Assembly (NCBI RefSeq): GCF_003575965.1 | Contig: NZ_QWJJ01000004.1 | Span: 62,001-126,000, forward strand | Direction of reading: 5' to 3' | Length of the DNA: 64,000 nt | DNA from: Pseudooceanicola sediminis | Lineage (GTDB): Bacteria > Pseudomonadota > Alphaproteobacteria > Rhodobacterales > Rhodobacteraceae | Part shown: positions 1,051 to 63,582 of the stretch, piece by piece | Position numbering within the stretch: the stretch's first letter is position 1 | How the letters are laid out: every line of letters begins with the position of its first letter | Position numbers and translations under genes: made by a program | Notes under the pieces: generated by a model | Told to the model about the DNA's origin: nothing | Database searches by the model: none | Seen by the model: the letters and a program-made list of their open reading frames with translations, nothing else

Positions 1051-1163
1051 GGTTAATCAGGCGATTGGCCCCGGATTTTCAACGTCGGTATCAGAACGGT
1101 ATCGAAGCGGTATCCGGGCGGTGCAACGGCGGCGGAAATGCCCTGGTTAACGCAGCGTGCGCT
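1051..1163 (-). repeat. Dispersed intergenic repeat, copy 1 (11-bp-spaced GATACCG element)
   Basis: Read on the minus strand this stretch carries GCGCACGCTGCGTTAA, then GTTGCACCG, then three GATACCG motifs spaced exactly 11 bases apart (plus-strand CGGTATC at 1086, 1097 and 1108, with a degenerate fourth CGGTGCA at 1119), then a TTAACC segment. The same order of blocks recurs at 43484-43593 and 63013-63129. It sits between the convergent genes eno and the DUF2798 gene. No protein can be recognised in it. Confidence 0.8.
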
Positions 1164-9545: not shown

Positions 9546-9836
9546 TCGCGGATGCGGGCAGGCCGCTTCAGCGGCGGCCTCCCTGTCATCTGGCCGGAAA
9601 TACCCCAGGGGGTGAGGGGGCCGTCAGGCCAACGAGGGGGACAGCGTCCCCCTTTCCTCTCCCCCGGTCGCCATATCGCCCCGATACTCTGCGCCTCCTC
9701 CCGCCCCCACTCTTTGGCCCCACTCTTTGGCCCCACTCTTTGGCCCCACCCTCTGACCCCCACTCCTTGGCCCTTTGCCGCGCCAGCCTGTCGGCGATGT
9801 GTCGCAATCGGCGTGCGAAATCTCCAATTACCCCCT
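9546..9836. other. Intergenic region with 13-bp tandem repeat, upstream of tmRNA
   Basis: No gene seen. Three identical 13-base units ACTCTTTGGCCCC occur at 9709-9721, 9722-9734 and 9735-9747, followed by two degenerate copies to about 9773. The tmRNA promoter follows. Confidence 0.7.
9709..9747. repeat. Tandem repeat, 3 x 13 bp
   Basis: Exact units ACTCTTTGGCCCC with decaying copies on the 3' side. It lies about 90 bases upstream of the tmRNA promoter. Confidence 0.9.
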
Positions 9837-9864
9837 TTGAATCCGCCCCGTCCCGTCCTATATC
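9837..9864 (+). promoter_or_regulatory. Likely sigma70 promoter of ssrA
   Basis: TTGAAT (9837-9842), 16-base spacer, TATATC (9859-9864), placing transcription start near 9871, just before the acceptor piece of the tmRNA. Confidence 0.6.
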
Positions 9865-9870
9865 AGCCTT

Positions 9871-10190
9871 GTCCCTTCGGGGACTATGGACATAAACGCG
9901 CTCGTAATAAGCGGCTCGGACCCGGGGGCGGTACCCGGCGGCTCCACCAAACATCCTTCATTTGGGGATCATGGGGCCGAAATAGGATCGACGAACGTCT
10001 AAAGGGGTTTTGCTTTGTCTCGGCTGTCTGCCACCGTTACCGGCGAAAAAAGTACAATTGCAAATGACAATCGTGCTCCGATGGCTCTGGCCGCGTAAGC
10101 GGTTCGAGTGATCGAAACCTAAGTCCTTGCGTTTAGCGACGTAAGGCGGGGTCCGCAGGTACCTGGCAACAGAAACCTGCACCTACCCCC
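9871..10190 (+). ncRNA. ssrA: Two-piece (permuted) tmRNA
   Basis: Rescues stalled ribosomes by adding a degradation tag. The gene is circularly permuted: the acceptor piece comes first and ends at 9949 with a T-arm-like GGCTCGGACCCGGGGG and CGGCTCCACCA. A short spacer (9950-9972) follows, then the coding piece starts at 9973 with GGGGCCGAAATAGGATCGACG. GGGGCCG pairs with CGGCTCC to rebuild the acceptor stem. The tag frame runs from GCA at 10060 to TAA at 10096-10098 and reads ANDNRAPMALAA. A final stem GCAGGT...ACCTGC closes the coding piece. Outer ends are estimates; the two conserved termini and the tag are directly visible. Confidence 0.93.
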
Positions 10191-28639: not shown

Positions 28640-29250
28640 CAGTCTCTGGCCATTATCCTCTCTCTCGACGCCGCCGGTGCTGCCTTCGAGACATGCGCCG
28701 CACCCCGGTTCCGGGGACGACGCTCGGTTTACACTATGTTAGGGCTCTTGGATAAAGCCCCGTGCCGCAGTGGCAAGTCGAGAATGTCATGCGGGGTGTC
28801 TTGATCGCGTCGCGCGGCCCTCACGCAACTGTGCGGAATGTTGTGCGGTTGCGGCGGCGACCAGCCCCTGAATCCGCCCCTTTGTCACCTTGAAAACAAG
28901 CCTCTACCCTGCCCCGCAGCAGGTCCTGTTCGGGCCGCGCCTGCCGGAATATCCGCGGTTGGGAATTGCCCTTCCCATCGTTCAAATTCTTGTCAGAACG
29001 AATTGGCCAGGGCGCTCTTGCGAATTGCATGGGCGATCCCCATGGCACGGCCACCCTGACACCGCGCCACCCGCAACCCCGACTGCGACGCCAACAGCGG
29101 ACAGGCCCGTTCCATGATGCCATTCGCCGGGCGCAATATCGGCTCCTCCTCACTATCTAGATGAATGGAATGATGGTCCGGTTTGATTGACAGGCGCCAT
29201 GACCTCTCTCATTATCTGTCCGGTCAAGGTGCCGCAGCATCGTCCCGACT
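28640..29250. other. Gene-free divergent region, mrp operon to riboswitch
   Basis: About 610 bases between the mrp start (minus) and the B12 leader (plus). It should hold the mrp promoter and the promoter of the B12-regulated gene. No CDS or clear repeat. The minus-strand frame at 28821-29153 is not recognisable and overlaps regulatory space. Confidence 0.5.
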
Positions 29251-29420
29251 GGGCAGAGGTTGCGGATAATAGGGAATTCGGTGCGCGGCCTGTTGCATGG
29301 TCCAAATCCGATGCTGCCCCCGCAACTGTAGGCGAACTGCCGGCCCGATATGCCACTGGTACGATGCACCGGGAAGGCCGGGACCGGCGCATGTTGGCAA
29401 GCCAGGAAACCTGCCTCGAC
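29251..29420 (+). promoter_or_regulatory. Cobalamin riboswitch
   Basis: Aptamer with all main conserved blocks in order: GCGGATAATAGGGAATTCGGTG (5' core, about 29261-29282), AATCCGATGCTGCCCCCGCAACTGTA (29305-29330, shown here only as landmarks), CCACTGG (29353-29359), GGGAAGG (29371-29377) and the B12 box AAGCCAGGAAACCTGCC (29399-29415). It lies about 140 bases before a MetE-like methyltransferase. In known cases, adenosyl- or methylcobalamin binding lowers expression. Outer ends are estimated. Confidence 0.93.
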
Positions 29421-29435
29421 CAATCACCTGTTCCG

Positions 29436-42835: not shown

Positions 42836-43309
42836 ATGAGCGATCGCCAGAAGAGTGCAGCCGGGGCCAACCCCGACGGGTTGATTCCGGACAGCCTGCG
42901 TGACGATATCGGGTTCAAGTTGCGCCTGGCCCAGATCCTGGCCTATCGCGCGTTCGAAGAGCGCGTGACAGGCTATGGTGCCGCGCCGCGCTATCTTGGT
43001 CTGCTGGCCATCATTCGCGCCACGCCGGGCCAGCCGCAAAGCCGCCTGGCCGAGGCCGTGGCCCTGCAACGCTCCAGCCTCGTGGCCATACTGGACCGTC
43101 TGGAAACCGATGGCCTGCTGGAACGGCGCGCCTCTGCCTCGGACCGCCGCGCAAAGGGGGTCTGGCTGACCGCGCAGGGAGAGGCCGTGACCGAGGAATT
43201 GCGCCTGCTGGCCCAGCAAAGCGAAGACCGCGCCACCGCCGGTCTGGATGCAGACAGCCGGGCGGCGCTGCTCAAATCACTCGATTGCATCATCGACAAC
43301 CTGCGCTGA
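42836..43309 (+). CDS. MarR-family transcriptional regulator
   Basis: 157-residue winged-helix regulator. Helices ~20-60 (FKLRLAQILAYRAFEERVT), recognition region QSRLAEAVALQRSSLVAILDRLETDGLLERR and wing ASDRRAKGVWLT are the MarR signature (DRR). Likely a repressor released by an acid or its CoA ester, given the divergent CoA-ligase operon; compare BadR of cyclohexanecarboxylate degradation. Monocistronic. Confidence 0.9.
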   Translation: MSDRQKSAAGANPDGLIPDSLRDDIGFKLRLAQILAYRAFEERVTGYGAAPRYLGLLAIIRATPGQPQSRLAEAVALQRSSLVAILDRLETDGLLERRASASDRRAKGVWLTAQGEAVTEELRLLAQQSEDRATAGLDADSRAALLKSLDCIIDNLR

Positions 43310-43350
43310 CACGCCGCGCCGATTTCGAGACCCGGATGCGAGTGCGGGTT

Positions 43351-43402
43351 GCGAGGACCAAGTGCGAGGGCCAAATGCGAGGGCCAAATGCGAGGACCGG
43401 TT
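43351..43402. repeat. Tandem repeat, 4 x 13 bp
   Basis: Units starting GCGAGG(A/G)CC at 43351, 43364, 43377 and 43390; the middle two are identical GCGAGGGCCAAAT. Just after marR, adjacent to copy 2 of the dispersed repeat, as the 27-bp repeats are next to copy 1. The rest of 43310-43695 holds no gene. Confidence 0.85.
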
Positions 43403-43483
43403 GCGCGATCACACAAGGACGCGCCGACTGCGCGCCCAAGACTCGCGCGCCTGAAACCCCGTGCCGATCGTGCGCCCAAAGCG

Positions 43484-43593
43484 GCGCACGCTGCGTTAAT
43501 CCGGGCGCAGCCCGCGCAGTTGCACCGTTCAGATACCGCCCGGATACCGACGCAGGCACCGACGTGCCAAATCGCGCCTTTTCTCAATTAATC
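43484..43593 (+). repeat. Dispersed intergenic repeat, copy 2
   Basis: Contains GCGCACGCTGCGTTAA, GTTGCACCG, two GATACCG motifs spaced 11 bases (43532, 43543), CCAAATCGCG and a TTAAT segment. Bases 43523-43576 are identical over 54 bases to 63059-63112. It sits between the convergent genes marR and the HpcH/HpaI aldolase gene. Confidence 0.9.
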
Positions 43594-43695: not shown

Positions 43696-44463
43696 TCAGG
43701 CCGCGCCCCGCATCTCGGCCAGCGCCCGTTTCGCGCCCTGCAGCACATAGCCCTGATCGGTGCCCAGCACGAACAACGTCGCGCCCTGCGCCGCCCATTC
43801 GGCACCGCGTCCCGGCTGGCCCAGAAACAGCCCCGCCGCCTTTTGCGCGCCCTGTGCCGCCGTCATGACATCGCGCGACAGCCGCTCTACCTCGGGGGCA
43901 TCCGGGGTCGTCAGCCCCAGCGACACCGCCAGGTCGACCGGCCCCACCAGCAGGCCATCGACACCCGGCACAGAGGCAATCTCGGCAGCGCGTGCAGCGG
44001 CCCCCTCGTCCTCGATCTGGCAAATCAGAACCGTCTCCTCTCCCGCGCGCGACAGGTGCCCGGCGATCCCCCGGCTGCCATAGTCCGCCCCGGCGGCCGA
44101 GGGGGTGAATCCCCGCCCACCCGGTCCGTAACGCATTCTCTTCGCTAGGTTTTCCGCCGCTTCTGCATCGGGCACCTGGGGTGCCACGATGCCCGCCGCA
44201 CCCGCGTCCAGCGCCGTCGCGATCCAGTGGCCCGCCAGCTCCGGCACCCGTACCAGCAGCGGCAATTGCGCGGCCCGCGCGGCGATCATCATCGCCGCAA
44301 TCGTGCCCCGGTCAAAGGCCCCGTGCTCGGCATCCAGGATGGCGAAATCCAACCCCGAATGCCCCAGCACTTCGATCATTGCCGGATCGGCAGACTTGAC
44401 GAACGTCCCCGCCAGACCCTGCCGCCCCCGCAACCGCGCCGCAAAGGTCGCGCGATAGGCCAT
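43696..44463 (-). CDS. HpcH/HpaI aldolase family protein
   Basis: Class II pyruvate-type aldolase or related lyase with a TIM barrel, 255 aa. Motifs: FVKSADPAMIEVLGHSGLDFAILDAEHG (metal/pyruvate site; landmark), LLVRVPE, GAAGIVAPQVPDAEAAE, CQIEDEGAA and GLLVGPVDLAVSLG. Typical members cleave 2-keto-3-deoxy or 4-hydroxy-2-oxo acids. The ATG at 44463 shares one base with the hyuB stop, so translation is coupled to the hydantoinase genes. Last gene of its operon. Confidence 0.9.
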   Translation of the reverse strand: MAYRATFAARLRGRQGLAGTFVKSADPAMIEVLGHSGLDFAILDAEHGAFDRGTIAAMMIAARAAQLPLLVRVPELAGHWIATALDAGAAGIVAPQVPDAEAAENLAKRMRYGPGGRGFTPSAAGADYGSRGIAGHLSRAGEETVLICQIEDEGAAARAAEIASVPGVDGLLVGPVDLAVSLGLTTPDAPEVERLSRDVMTAAQGAQKAAGLFLGQPGRGAEWAAQGATLFVLGTDQGYVLQGAKRALAEMRGAA

Positions 44464-60830: not shown

Positions 60831-62081
60831 GTGGCACAGCTCGACATCAGCCAGAAACTCACCATCCTCGCGGATGCGGCGAAATACGATGCGTCCTGCG
60901 CCTCCTCGGGGGCGAAAAAGCGCGACTCGCGCGATGGCACCGGCATCGGGTCGATCACCGGCGGCGGTGGGATCTGTCACGCCTATGCCCCCGACGGGCG
61001 CTGCATCAGCCTGCTCAAGATCCTGCTGACCAACAGCTGCATCTTCGATTGCCACTACTGCATCAACCGCCGCAGCTCCAACGTGCGCCGCGCCCGCTTT
61101 ACCGCGCCCGAGGTCGTCGACCTCACCCTCAACTTCTATCGCCGCAACTACATCGAAGGGCTGTTCCTGTCCTCCGGCATCATCGCCAGCGCCAACTACA
61201 CCATGGAACAGATCGTCGAGGTCGCGCGGTCCCTGCGCGAAGACCACGACTTTCGCGGCTACATCCACCTCAAGACCATTCCCAATGCCGACGCCGAACT
61301 GATCGCGCAGGCCGGGCGCTACGCCGACCGCGTCTCGATCAATGTCGAACTGCCCACCCGGCAGGGCCTCGAACGCCTTGCCCCGGAAAAATCCGAAACC
61401 CAGATCGAAGGCGCGATGGCCGACATGGCCACCGTGATCGAAGACGGCGCGGATGCCCGCAAACGCTACAAATCCGCGCCCCGTTATGCCCCCGCCGGCC
61501 AGTCGACGCAGATGATCATCGGGGCCGACGCTGCCAATGACCGCGACATCGTGCGTCGCGCCTCGGGCCTCTACACGCGGTTCAAGCTCAAGCGCGTCTA
61601 TTACTCGGCCTTCAGCCCGATCCCCGATGCCTCCGCCGTGCTGCCACTGCAACGCCCGCCGATGCAGCGCGAACACCGGCTCTATCAATCCGACTGGCTG
61701 ATCCGCTGCTACGATTTCTCTCTGGCCGAGGTCACATCGGTCGCCGATACCGCCACCGGAATGCTGCCGCTGGACATCGACCCGAAGCTGGCATGGGCGC
61801 TGAAATTCCGTGGACAGTTTCCCGTCGACGTGAACCGCGCCCCGCGCGAGATGCTGTTGCGTATCCCCGGCCTGGGGCCGACGGCCGTGAATCGCCTGCT
61901 CAAGGCGCGCCGCTATCGCAGCCTGCGCCTGGCCGACGTGGCCCGCGCCACGACCTCGGTCAAGAAACTGCGCCCCTTCATTATCTGCGAAGACTGGCGG
62001 CCCCTGGCGCTGACCGACAGCGCCGACCTCAAGGCGCTGATCACCCCGAAACCAAAGCAGATGGAGCTGTTTGCGGTATGA
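60831..62081 (+). CDS. Putative DNA modification/repair radical SAM protein
   Basis: 416 aa; radical SAM core with the CX3CX2C cluster CIFDCHYC (~75-82) for a [4Fe-4S]-SAM, GLFLSSGI and IHLKTIPN barrel segments, and a helix-hairpin-helix DNA-binding end LLRIPGLGPTAVNRLLKARR (landmark). This is the family named putative DNA modification/repair radical SAM protein, distantly related to spore photoproduct lyase. GAGAGGG precedes GTG 60831; an ATG-led extension to 60777 would enter the tandem repeats. Overlaps the next gene by four bases. Substrate lesion unknown. Confidence 0.9.
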   Translation: MAQLDISQKLTILADAAKYDASCASSGAKKRDSRDGTGIGSITGGGGICHAYAPDGRCISLLKILLTNSCIFDCHYCINRRSSNVRRARFTAPEVVDLTLNFYRRNYIEGLFLSSGIIASANYTMEQIVEVARSLREDHDFRGYIHLKTIPNADAELIAQAGRYADRVSINVELPTRQGLERLAPEKSETQIEGAMADMATVIEDGADARKRYKSAPRYAPAGQSTQMIIGADAANDRDIVRRASGLYTRFKLKRVYYSAFSPIPDASAVLPLQRPPMQREHRLYQSDWLIRCYDFSLAEVTSVADTATGMLPLDIDPKLAWALKFRGQFPVDVNRAPREMLLRIPGLGPTAVNRLLKARRYRSLRLADVARATTSVKKLRPFIICEDWRPLALTDSADLKALITPKPKQMELFAV

Positions 62082-62935
62082 CCCACCATGTCATCCGGCT
62101 CGACGCCCCGGACGATTTCGATGGCTGGCGCGACGCGGCACGCGCCCTGGCAGGCTCCGGCGTGCCCGCCGACCGTGTGCTCTGGCAGGTCGGGGATCAG
62201 CCCGCCGACCTGTTCGCCACGCCGCACCGCGCCCCGGTCGCTCCGATCTCGCCTTCCGCCGCCCGCCTGAACGTGCCGCGCGATTTCATCCAACTGGCGC
62301 GCAGCGTGGTGCTGCACCGCGACCCTGAGCGATTCTCGCTGCTTTACGCGCTGCTGCTGCGGGTGCTGCACCGGCCCGCGCTGATGCAGGACGCCACCGA
62401 CCCGCTGCGTCGCCGGGTCGAGGGGCTGTCGCAGGCCGTCCGCCGCGACATGCACAAGATGCGGGCCTTTGTGCGCTTTCGCGAAATCACGATGCCGGGC
62501 CAGGACGGGGATGCGGCAGAGGGCCAGTCGCGCTTCGTCGCCTGGTTCGAACCCGACCACCACATCACCCGCACCAATGCCGCGTTTTTCGTCGGTCGCT
62601 TTGCGACGATGCACTGGTCGATCCTGACACCGGATGCCGCTATTCACTGGGACGGGACGACCCTGCGCCAAGGCCCGGGCGCCAGCGCCGCCGACGCCGC
62701 CCCCGGTGATCCGCTGGAAGAGGTCTGGAAGGCGTATTACAGCGCCATCTTCAACCCTGCCCGCCTGAACCCGCGCGCCATGCTCAGCGAGATGCCGATG
62801 AAATACTGGAAGAACTTGCCGGAGGCCGCCCTGATCCCCGACCTGATGGCGACGGCCCGCGCCCGCGAACTCGACATGATCGAGCGGTCACGCGCCGCAC
62901 AGGGTCGCCACGGCACCGCCAAGGTGGGTCGCTAG
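62078..62935 (+). CDS. DUF4130 (TIGR03915-type) putative DNA repair protein
   Basis: 285 aa, the regular partner of the radical SAM gene. Features: VLWQVGD near ~35, VPRDFIQLARSVVLHRDPERFSLLYALLLRVL, RRDMHKMRAFVRFREI, WFEPDHHITRTNAAFFVGRFA and a MPMKYWKNLPEA end. In many bacteria this domain is fused to a uracil-DNA-glycosylase-like (UdgX) domain; here the protein ends after the DUF4130 part, so no glycosylase is present. Overlaps the radical SAM gene (ATGA). Thought to assist DNA repair; mechanism unproven. Confidence 0.88.
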   Translation: MTHHVIRLDAPDDFDGWRDAARALAGSGVPADRVLWQVGDQPADLFATPHRAPVAPISPSAARLNVPRDFIQLARSVVLHRDPERFSLLYALLLRVLHRPALMQDATDPLRRRVEGLSQAVRRDMHKMRAFVRFREITMPGQDGDAAEGQSRFVAWFEPDHHITRTNAAFFVGRFATMHWSILTPDAAIHWDGTTLRQGPGASAADAAPGDPLEEVWKAYYSAIFNPARLNPRAMLSEMPMKYWKNLPEAALIPDLMATARARELDMIERSRAAQGRHGTAKVGR

Positions 62936-63256
62936 CGGCTGCGCAGCCCAGACCAATTGCCGAGACAGGAGGGGCAGACCACACCTGCAAATGCCGTGCC
63001 GGACCGATCCCGCGGCGCGGCGTACGTTGCATTAACCCTGTCGCGCGGCGCAAACGCCCACCGTTCAGATACCGCCCGGATACCGACGCAGGCACCGACG
63101 TGCCAAATCGCGGTTTTCCTGAATTAACCTGTGAAAAGACCCCTGTTCGCGCCAACGCGCCGTGCGGCAATACCGACGTCGCAAAAACGCGTATTAACCA
63201 AGGTCTATCCTCGCCCCGGTGGGGCGTGTCACAGCTCGGATACCTTGGGGGGAAAG
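62936..63256. other. Gene-free interval containing repeat copy 3
   Basis: Apart from the dispersed repeat it holds GAATTAACC and GTATTAACCAAG segments and a GC hairpin CGCCCC-GGTG-GGGCG-like near 63210-63228 (before the tRNA 3' end). No gene. Confidence 0.55.
63013..63129 (+). repeat. Dispersed intergenic repeat, copy 3
   Basis: GCGGCGCGGCGTACGTTGCATTAA, then CACCGTTCAGATACCGCCCGG with GATACCG motifs 11 bases apart, CCAAATCGCG and GAATTAACC. Bases 63059-63112 are identical to 43523-43576. Between the convergent DUF4130 gene (plus) and tRNA-Asp (minus). Confidence 0.9.
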
Positions 63257-63333
63257 TGGCGCGGTTGACGGGGCTCGAACCCGCGACCCCCGGCGTGACA
63301 GGCCGGTACTCTAACCAACTGAGCTACAACCGC
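63257..63333 (-). tRNA. tRNA-Asp (GTC), copy 1
   Basis: 77 nt with an encoded CCA. Acceptor stem GCGGTTG / CAACCGC, D-arm GCTCAGTTGGTTAGAGT, anticodon loop CTGTCAC (anticodon GTC, decodes Asp), T-arm GGGTTCGAGCCC. Identical to the second copy. Confidence 0.97.
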
Positions 63334-63505: not shown

Positions 63506-63582
63506 TGGCGCGGTTGACGGGGCTCGAACCCGCGACCCCCGGCGTGACAGGCCGGTACTCTAACCAACTGAGCTACAACCGC
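63506..63582 (-). tRNA. tRNA-Asp (GTC), copy 2
   Basis: Sequence identical to copy 1 over all 77 bases, 249 bases away. Same anticodon GTC and encoded CCA. Confidence 0.97.

Follow-up and report, generated by a model that had tools for sequence, protein, structure and literature searches.

When the strands of a bacterial chromosome differ locally in composition, replication and transcription are usually held responsible. Chi sites, which are read by RecBCD or AddAB, are very frequent, polar, single words of 5-8 bp that raise recombination on one side over ~10 kb and have a replichore-favoured orientation. FtsK orienting polar sequences (KOPS) are strand-biased along replichores, chromosome-wide. 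Boxes of the OmpR/PhoB type are 11-bp head-to-tail direct repeats with 7 + 4 bases, and repetitive extragenic palindromic sequences and bacterial interspersed mosaic elements (REP/BIME) are dispersed and intergenic, often lie at 3' ends or in convergent gaps, and have an imperfect palindrome able to fold. Architecture imparting sequences (AIMS) are 8-bp words that are strand-biased along replichores and enriched toward the terminus (PMC5993296). Here we describe a dispersed array of GATACCG-type units, first seen as three copies in a window of Pseudooceanicola sediminis DNA (contig NZ_QWJJ01000004.1, positions 62,001 to 126,000; the window is the whole stretch of 64,000 nucleotides that was analysed). 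In this genome and in most of the relatives examined a many-kb, one-sided compositional tract is centred on the array, and such a tract is poorly explained by replication or transcription. No description of this element was found in searches of open-licence papers, and it is on these searches alone that we call it undescribed.

A preliminary description of the three copies had left a protein-binding array, a REP/BIME-like element and an unusual terminator as possibilities, and had expected a genome-wide search to find further copies. They are abundant. The pattern GATACCGN{2,6}GATACCGAC matches 89 times in the 4.44-Mb P. sediminis genome, with a spacer of 4 bases in 88 of the 89, and its reversed control does not match at all; the looser ATACCGN5ATACCG gives 187 matches (control, 1). 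The surroundings of all 89 strict matches define a core of usually four units, (C)ACCG, RATACCG, RATACCG and RATACCGACGT, with 4-5 free bases between them. The units run head to tail, each of 11 bp with 7 conserved and 4 variable bases, so that they stand one helical turn apart in a phase kept genome-wide, and the array measures about 40 bp. Scanning 800 kb of Pseudooceanicola spongiae with a position weight matrix derived from 104 copies gave 25 elements with scores above 10, 24 of them above 18, and reversed decoys never exceeded 4. In a scan that ignores the letters, 27 of 391 P. spongiae gaps have a strong self-match at lag 11, as against 1-6 gaps at each other lag from 6 to 16. Judged from sequence, a protein-binding array with helical-turn spacing would thus fit well, and this part of the preliminary description stands; its other suggestions fail in the fold tests and gene-context counts given below. 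The polar footprint, the replichore polarity and the positional conservation go beyond what it foresaw.

We measured the footprint at 4-fold degenerate sites, as the mean of both gene orientations. On the array strand C exceeds G, a skew that takes ~20 kb to fade in the 5' flank and ~4 kb in the 3' flank; the 5' flank is the richer in GC and the 3' flank the richer in A+T. Pooled over 222 arrays, with bootstrap errors, the 5' GC skew is -0.16 to -0.22 at 0-9 kb and weakens to -0.10 at 14-20 kb and to -0.02 at 20-30 kb. A 3' skew of -0.28 at 0-250 bp shrinks to -0.12 at 1.5-2 kb and to -0.035 at 4-6 kb. Sites 5' of the array have an A+T content of 0.11-0.14, those 3' of it one of 0.15-0.17. Past ~7 kb, nearly all of the data behind this pooled profile belong to the window and to the 800 kb analysed in P. 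spongiae.

The footprint is also seen array by array and organism by organism. The paired A+T difference (3' minus 5', up to 6 kb) is positive at 32 of 37 P. spongiae arrays (p 1e-6), at 64 of 79 in the P. sediminis genome (p 3e-10), and at 46 of 65 named-genome loci among the matches listed (p 3e-4), which include six from P. spongiae (L125, L134, L156, L172, L181 and L210). The named-genome loci are 96 stretches among the matches listed, 80 of which entered the per-organism test and the other 16 the profile and paired tests only; arrays and organisms with too few 4-fold sites were dropped, which leaves the 37, 79 and 65 arrays just given and 27 of 32 organisms. With P. spongiae set aside, the A+T step is found in 22 of these 27 organisms (p 0.002) and a negative 5' skew in 24, again among the matches listed. 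Control gaps have mean A+T differences of 0.006 (n=166) and 0.003 (n=14), ordinary gaps of all three kinds have no footprint, and none of the other P. spongiae gaps has a polar step like that at the arrays.

Gene direction does not cause the skew, given that it is negative in the flanks of 35/41, 19/20 and 25/28 copies in the three gene-direction bins. Nor does the 5' footprint follow the replichore. To the right of the presumed origin of P. spongiae (placed by mnmG at 3.217 Mb, which we take to be origin-linked in this class), the 5' skew is negative in 8/8 arrays on the plus strand and 9/9 on the minus strand, and the footprint therefore follows the array. In the same arrays, some of which have no sites on one side, the 3' skew is negative in 2/8 and 5/9 and the A+T difference positive in 6/8 and 7/9, respectively.

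Congeners with and without arrays permit a direct comparison. One of them (G199) has no array in the 1.2 Mb examined, and its skew runs smoothly along the replichore. At 17 array-less G199 gaps orthologous to array gaps, the A+T difference is -0.004 (9/17 positive), compared with +0.028 (11/16) at the same loci in bearers, and the skew is -0.05 on each side, compared with -0.12 and -0.16; the footprint is thus weak or absent where the array is absent. A smaller set of 7 G199 gaps had a reversed A+T step of -0.03 (1/7 positive), which was not kept in the 17-gap set. Measured against G199 orthologs (100 genes), bearer sequences within 3 kb on the 5' side have gained array-strand C, with ratios of 1.51 for G to C, 1.60 for T to C and 1.40 for A to C; the ratios toward G are 0.93 (A to G) and 0.99 (T to G). 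On the 3' side the ratios are 1.37 for G to C, 0.71 for T to C and 0.54 for T to G.

Dispersed repeat sequence other than the arrays does not behave in this way. TTTCCCTGTnnnAAATATCCC, a candidate for an element that replaces the array in the G199 gaps, was rejected: it is also present in P. spongiae, its skew extends to 1 kb at most, and it has no polar A+T step of the expected sense, the step in G199 being slightly reversed (3/12 positive, p 0.02). The dispersed repeat GTTTCCCTGTnnnAAATATCCC (L321-L340, L277-L316), of which many copies are followed by a GC-rich block such as CGGGGGCAGCGCCCCC, is present 12 times each in 400 kb of G199 and in 800 kb of P. spongiae, is absent from the window, and has no polar step like that of the arrays.

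The arrays are patchy in Rhodobacteraceae. ATACCGN5ATACCG occurs in 10 of 23 Pseudooceanicola genomes and is absent from the other 13, and only five congeners have more than two matches (P. sediminis 187, P. spongiae, G218, 196, G202 95, G215 73 and G201 23). At least one match is found in 99 of 394 genomes of the family and at least six in 20, P. sediminis among them. In the class the pattern is matched in 46 of 289 genomes, and the 285 outside the family carry at most 4, as in the control. Among the matches listed, the carriers include Roseovarius, Shimia, Boseongicola, Silicimonas, Salinihabitans and Pseudooceanicola. Matches in viral contigs (14) were set aside as chance, 11 of the 14 being called inside genes, and plasmids and phages gave no match to the 43-nt consensus at E 0.01, a weak test in that real copies deviate from the consensus.

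Some other genera of the family carry a second array type with the 11-bp unit GCCATACGCNN. Its pattern, GCCATAN5GCCATA, which is identical to our reversed control pattern, is matched 76 times in G145, 36 in G067, 22 in G074 and 20 in G306, and all four genomes have 0 matches to the first type. Among 30 of these arrays inspected, 5 were called within genes and 1 lay at an edge. They have the same near footprint: in 1.5-kb flanks, the only ones measured for this type, the raw skew is negative in 28/30 on the 5' side and 29/30 on the 3' side, and A+T is higher 3' than 5' in 26/29, one of the 30 having too few 4-fold sites.

Many arrays keep their positions between species. Twelve of 24 P. spongiae elements checked lie in the orthologous gap of a P. 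sediminis element, with both flanks and the orientation matching, and the contiguous 800 kb contain 11 syntenic gaps, of which 8 have an array, in the same orientation every time, where ~9% would be expected per gap. The third window copy is conserved in P. spongiae (L247) with both flanks and the same orientation; the second has a possible counterpart there (L249), with one 141-bp flank matching only; and the gap behind eno, where the first lies in P. sediminis, has none there. A further one of the 11 syntenic gaps, that of L028, holds in P. spongiae what appears by eye to be a decayed array, and one locus (L051) has a one-flank match between the two species in opposite orientation. Beyond this pair, an array in a liv-type operon gap (named by eye) is common to L082 (G176), G201 and P. 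sediminis, and the L042 gap has an array in four Pseudooceanicola genomes, in Shimia marina and at L205. In aligned orthologous arrays the core letters are mostly kept and the spacers differ, as expected of a protein-binding site, although detection by core letters itself favours such a result.

Array orientation is mostly aligned with the replichores and points away from the presumed origin. Among the matches listed, hand-clustered into elements, 19 of 23 in P. spongiae are on the minus strand between 77 and 918 kb and 37 of 41 on the plus strand between 1.03 and 2.98 Mb, so that 56 of 64 up to 2.98 Mb have the expected sense. The 800 kb around the presumed origin are mixed (14 plus, 11 minus). 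The C-richer strand of the flanks carries 79 of the 89 copies in P. sediminis, regardless of local gene direction, and 67 of 80 named-genome loci among the matches listed. Arrays in P. spongiae occur at ~1 per 32 kb and are spaced more evenly than random gaps (coefficient of variation 0.64, p 0.0135).

A one-sided, strand-specific tract that lies at a directional array, and is weak or absent without it, calls for a process on the DNA that has a direction and has its start or its end at that site. GC is raised in the tract, whereas cytosine deamination would lower it, and this points to biased repair in recombination rather than to damage; on this ground we prefer polar recombination start sites to a replication or segregation signal and to packaging by gene transfer agents (GTAs), both discussed below. 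We tentatively favour, with less than even confidence, the explanation that the arrays are polar, protein-bound sites that start strand-specific DNA processing, probably recombination, which would run 5'-ward. In this scenario the usually four same-facing half-sites, one per helical turn, would be bound by a putative oligomeric DNA-binding protein, the preferred letters of which may differ by lineage (ATACCG-type and CCATACG-type arrays). Each site with bound protein would launch a process that treats the two DNA strands unequally and extends mainly toward the 5' end of the GATACCG strand, over about 10-20 kb, with only about 2-4 kb in the opposite direction. Homologous recombination is the best candidate, with strand-specific resection or uptake, invasion and GC-biased repair, and the array may act in the manner of Chi or as a fixed hotspot of recombination. 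As with Chi, the arrays are polar and favour one orientation along the replichore; their one-sided composition footprint may correspond to the one-sided effect of Chi on recombination.

Several points weigh against this explanation. Chi is a single short word, whereas the arrays are usually four phased units, ~1 per 32 kb in P. spongiae and mostly intergenic. AddA, which was tried as a discriminator of array bearers, is ruled out as such, being found in 23/23 congeners with or without arrays, and a simple AddAB/Chi link therefore fails to explain the patchiness. Raised GC together with C over G is no textbook signature of mutation or conversion, and the array could mark the tract instead of causing it. 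Some organisms lack the footprint; in CSSed, HKST89 and Shimia marina, for example, the 5' skew is not negative. More units do not mean a stronger footprint; in the named genomes the A+T difference even drops with unit number (rho -0.44, p 1e-4). In the comparison with G199, the array-less gaps retain some skew (the -0.05 given above) and the bearers' own A+T step is modest (positive at 11 of the 16 loci). At four loci flipped relative to the replichore, the bearers have almost no net skew (-0.007; G199 +0.025), as if array and replichore effects cancelled, which at n=4 is weak. Finally, one genome per species was compared, and our home-made gene caller missed a marR-like open reading frame (ORF) beside the second window copy by stretching a ligase ORF across it.

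Should recombination be the cause, these abundant marine bacteria would have fixed polar hotspots whose recognition can evolve, and the arrays would be candidate start sites for unexplained GTA packaging peaks. It is possible, and more doubtful than the explanation for single arrays, that the whole family has programmed polar recombination-start sites whose letters switch by lineage together with the reader protein, and that these may also serve as GTA packaging starts. Lineage-switching arrays with such a reader would be a bacterial counterpart of evolving meiotic hotspots. The array also offers a concrete sequence bait for the putative reader protein.

An alternative, which we consider unlikely, is a replication or segregation signal: polar, fork-oriented sites read by a translocase or the replisome, in a logic like that of KOPS or AIMS, with a replication-coupled footprint. 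The replichore-like orientation in P. spongiae, the placement of P. sediminis copies on the C-rich strand of their flanks and the even spacing would all fit, and the arrays resemble KOPS and AIMS in their bias along replichores. Near the presumed origin, however, where orientations are mixed, the 5' footprint tracks the array in either orientation, and the array-less G199 still has its smooth replichore skew. An essential segregation signal would hardly be missing from 13 of 23 congeners. The arrays, moreover, are ~40 bp long rather than single octamers, are rarer and more intergenic than the known octamer signals, and have a local compositional tract that follows array orientation.

It is quite unlikely that the arrays are pac-like starts of GTA packaging, from which one-way headful packaging would lead the 5' flanks to be transferred and recombined more, with constant strand orientation. 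A tract of several 4-kb headfuls would fit, and 22 of 23 congeners have a match to Terminase_6N (terminase large subunit), G211 having none; to judge from a small ORF upstream, the match is probably a GTA gene. A review reports for the Dinoroseobacter shibae GTA discrete packaging start peaks that have no known sequence signal (Tomasch 2018, via PMC11841831), and these peaks may be akin to the arrays in that the bacteria are related and the start sites discrete. The same review leans toward chromosome architecture or protein occupancy to account for packaging bias (PMC11841831), and DNA binding by the small terminase, TerS, of RcGTA is reported as weak and non-specific (PMC6854486); both tell against packaging starts. 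Candidate TerS ORFs of 110-163 aa, with uncertain start codons, were found at 19 of the 21 loci read; those of bearers resemble those of non-bearers and by eye have no obvious added DNA-binding domain, which rules out the GTA small terminase as a discriminating reader at these 19 loci. Replichore-aligned orientation is also left unexplained.

Similarly improbable is the idea that the arrays are sites of a global regulator or nucleoid protein, for example a winged-helix protein of the OmpR/PhoB type, with the tract as a by-product or a placement preference. The 11-bp head-to-tail units with 7 conserved and 4 variable bases are, at the level of sequence, like OmpR/PhoB-type boxes and suggest, without proof, a winged-helix reader; that four units are usual and spacers drift freely would also fit. 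Some copies, class C (below) among them, lie just ahead of start codons (L019, L028), and class C copies run along transcription in 13 of 15 codirectional cases. Against this, the arrays number about a hundred or more, are replichore-aligned and have a many-kb strand-specific tract, and the absence of its A+T step from array-less orthologous gaps would be unexplained. Most copies lie off promoters. This and the other counts of gene context rest on the home-made, codon-based caller and are approximate. Divergent gaps hold 4 of 23 intergenic copies in the 800 kb of P. spongiae and make up 92 of 281 gaps, an under-use that is not significant (p 0.11).

The three window copies had been described as lying only between convergent genes, and this does not hold genome-wide. 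Of the 83 P. sediminis copies that could be classified (6 of the 89, at edges, were left out), 25 are in convergent gaps, a kind that makes up 46 of the 190 gaps measuring 100 bp or more, and 8 were called within genes. In the 800 kb of P. spongiae 7 of the 23 intergenic copies are convergent, compared with 30 of 281 gaps (Fisher p 0.006). Convergent gaps are thus enriched, not exclusive. One copy (L018) sits within a reading frame. The flanking genes, named by eye without profiles, are of varied housekeeping kinds and give no clue to function. An array in P. spongiae (G218:C1:3728867) lies upstream of the apparent start of an rRNA operon (16S recognised by eye, in P. spongiae only), and its counterpart in P. 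sediminis (L029), in the same orientation, stands just before a contig end.

We rejected, as very improbable, a short mobile or selfish repeat, like REP or a miniature inverted-repeat transposable element (MITE), that inserts preferentially into one replication strand. The high and patchy copy number (0 to 196 matches among the 23 congeners), the strand bias, the conserved outer blocks, the absence of the first window copy from the sister species and the copies in an 80-bp tandem repeat that reaches a contig end would all suit such an element. The orthologous positions kept between congeners, and in places between genera, do not, nor does a core that is kept as spacers vary, and the polar compositional tract is not predicted. 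The three window copies have no terminal inverted repeats of the MITE kind; inverted repeats of at least 8 bp are absent from the first and third copies, and the second has three pairs, none terminal. The 89 strict matches, mostly intergenic, are multicopy and extragenic as REP/BIME are, and often lie in convergent gaps. However, they have no conserved palindrome or fold and many keep orthologous positions; a fold check on 8 copies was no better than shuffles (z -1.58 to +1.87), and the REP/BIME suggestion was dropped on this evidence.

An intrinsic terminator or other RNA element is hardly credible, although all three window copies lie between 3' ends: there is no fold signal, terminator-like sites (GC-rich hairpin plus T run) occur inside none of the three copies (three such sites lie beside the first and second), Rfam has no match at the copies, and arrays occur in either orientation relative to genes, so that both the terminator and the Rfam RNA reading were rejected.

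Within the window, the positions and block order of all three copies are as first described. The first, on the minus strand in the convergent gap eno/DUF2798, has a conserved block at 1051..1163, which bears GCGCACGCTGCGTTAACC at its 5' and GATTAACC at its 3' side, and a four-unit array at 1086..1125 (ACCG, then three GATACCG at 11-bp steps). The second, on the plus strand, has its block at 43484..43593, with a TTAATC box at each end, and its array at 43521..43561; the third, also on the plus strand, has its block at 63013..63129 and its array at 63060..63097. Both of these arrays read ACCG, GATACCG, GATACCG and a final ACCG placed 12 bases from its neighbour, so that the 11-base spacing first reported applies to most units and not to this last one. 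The blocks said to be shared are in the same order throughout and are not all alike: the first block of the third copy is GCGTACGTTGCATTAA, with 3 mismatches, and CGCCCACCG stands there in place of GTTGCACCG. One further 3-mismatch site of the first block lies at 61913 (about 1 expected). The second and third copies do share 54 identical bases, CACCG...AAATCGCG, counted by eye. GATACCG-N2-6-GATACCG has 4 matches in the window, every one within the copies, where shuffles expect 0.01.

The gap of the second copy is bounded by a marR-like ORF on the left (42836-43309, plus strand; MarR by eye, without a profile) and an HpcH/HpaI aldolase gene (HpcH_HpaI) on the right (43696-44463, minus strand), and that of the third by a DUF4130 gene (62078-62935, plus strand) and a tRNA gene found by Rfam (63260-63333, minus strand). 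All three window copies are thus in gaps between convergent 3' ends, and short imperfect tandem repeats adjoin the first two (1170-1340 and 43340-43420, by eye), both as noted before.

Outside the core, simple motif rules sort the P. sediminis copies into three loose classes. Class A has ...GTTCGAATTnnGCGATATCAAnGRCTTG 3' of the array; class C are short copies; and class B, which is the most convergent (7/11), has GTTAACC boxes that frame the array, often followed by CCGAGTCGC. The first window copy, flanked on both sides by TTAACC, belongs to class B. The recurrent CCGAGTCGC/GATTCGC motif beyond the 3' GTTAACC box (e.g., L003, L026, L067, L101) contains GANTC, the methylation site of CcrM. 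The 80-bp tandem repeat mentioned above (L049:2926-3178) has one array copy per unit and reaches the contig end, and in four other contigs of the same genome an array lies no more than 500 bp from the start or end (L011, L017, L029 and L092).

Near the third copy, a second minus-strand tRNA gene (63509-63582) lies ~175 bp from the one at 63260-63333 and has an equal Rfam score. Elsewhere in the window, Rfam has strong matches to an alpha-type tmRNA at 9832-10183 and to a cobalamin riboswitch at 29210-29432.
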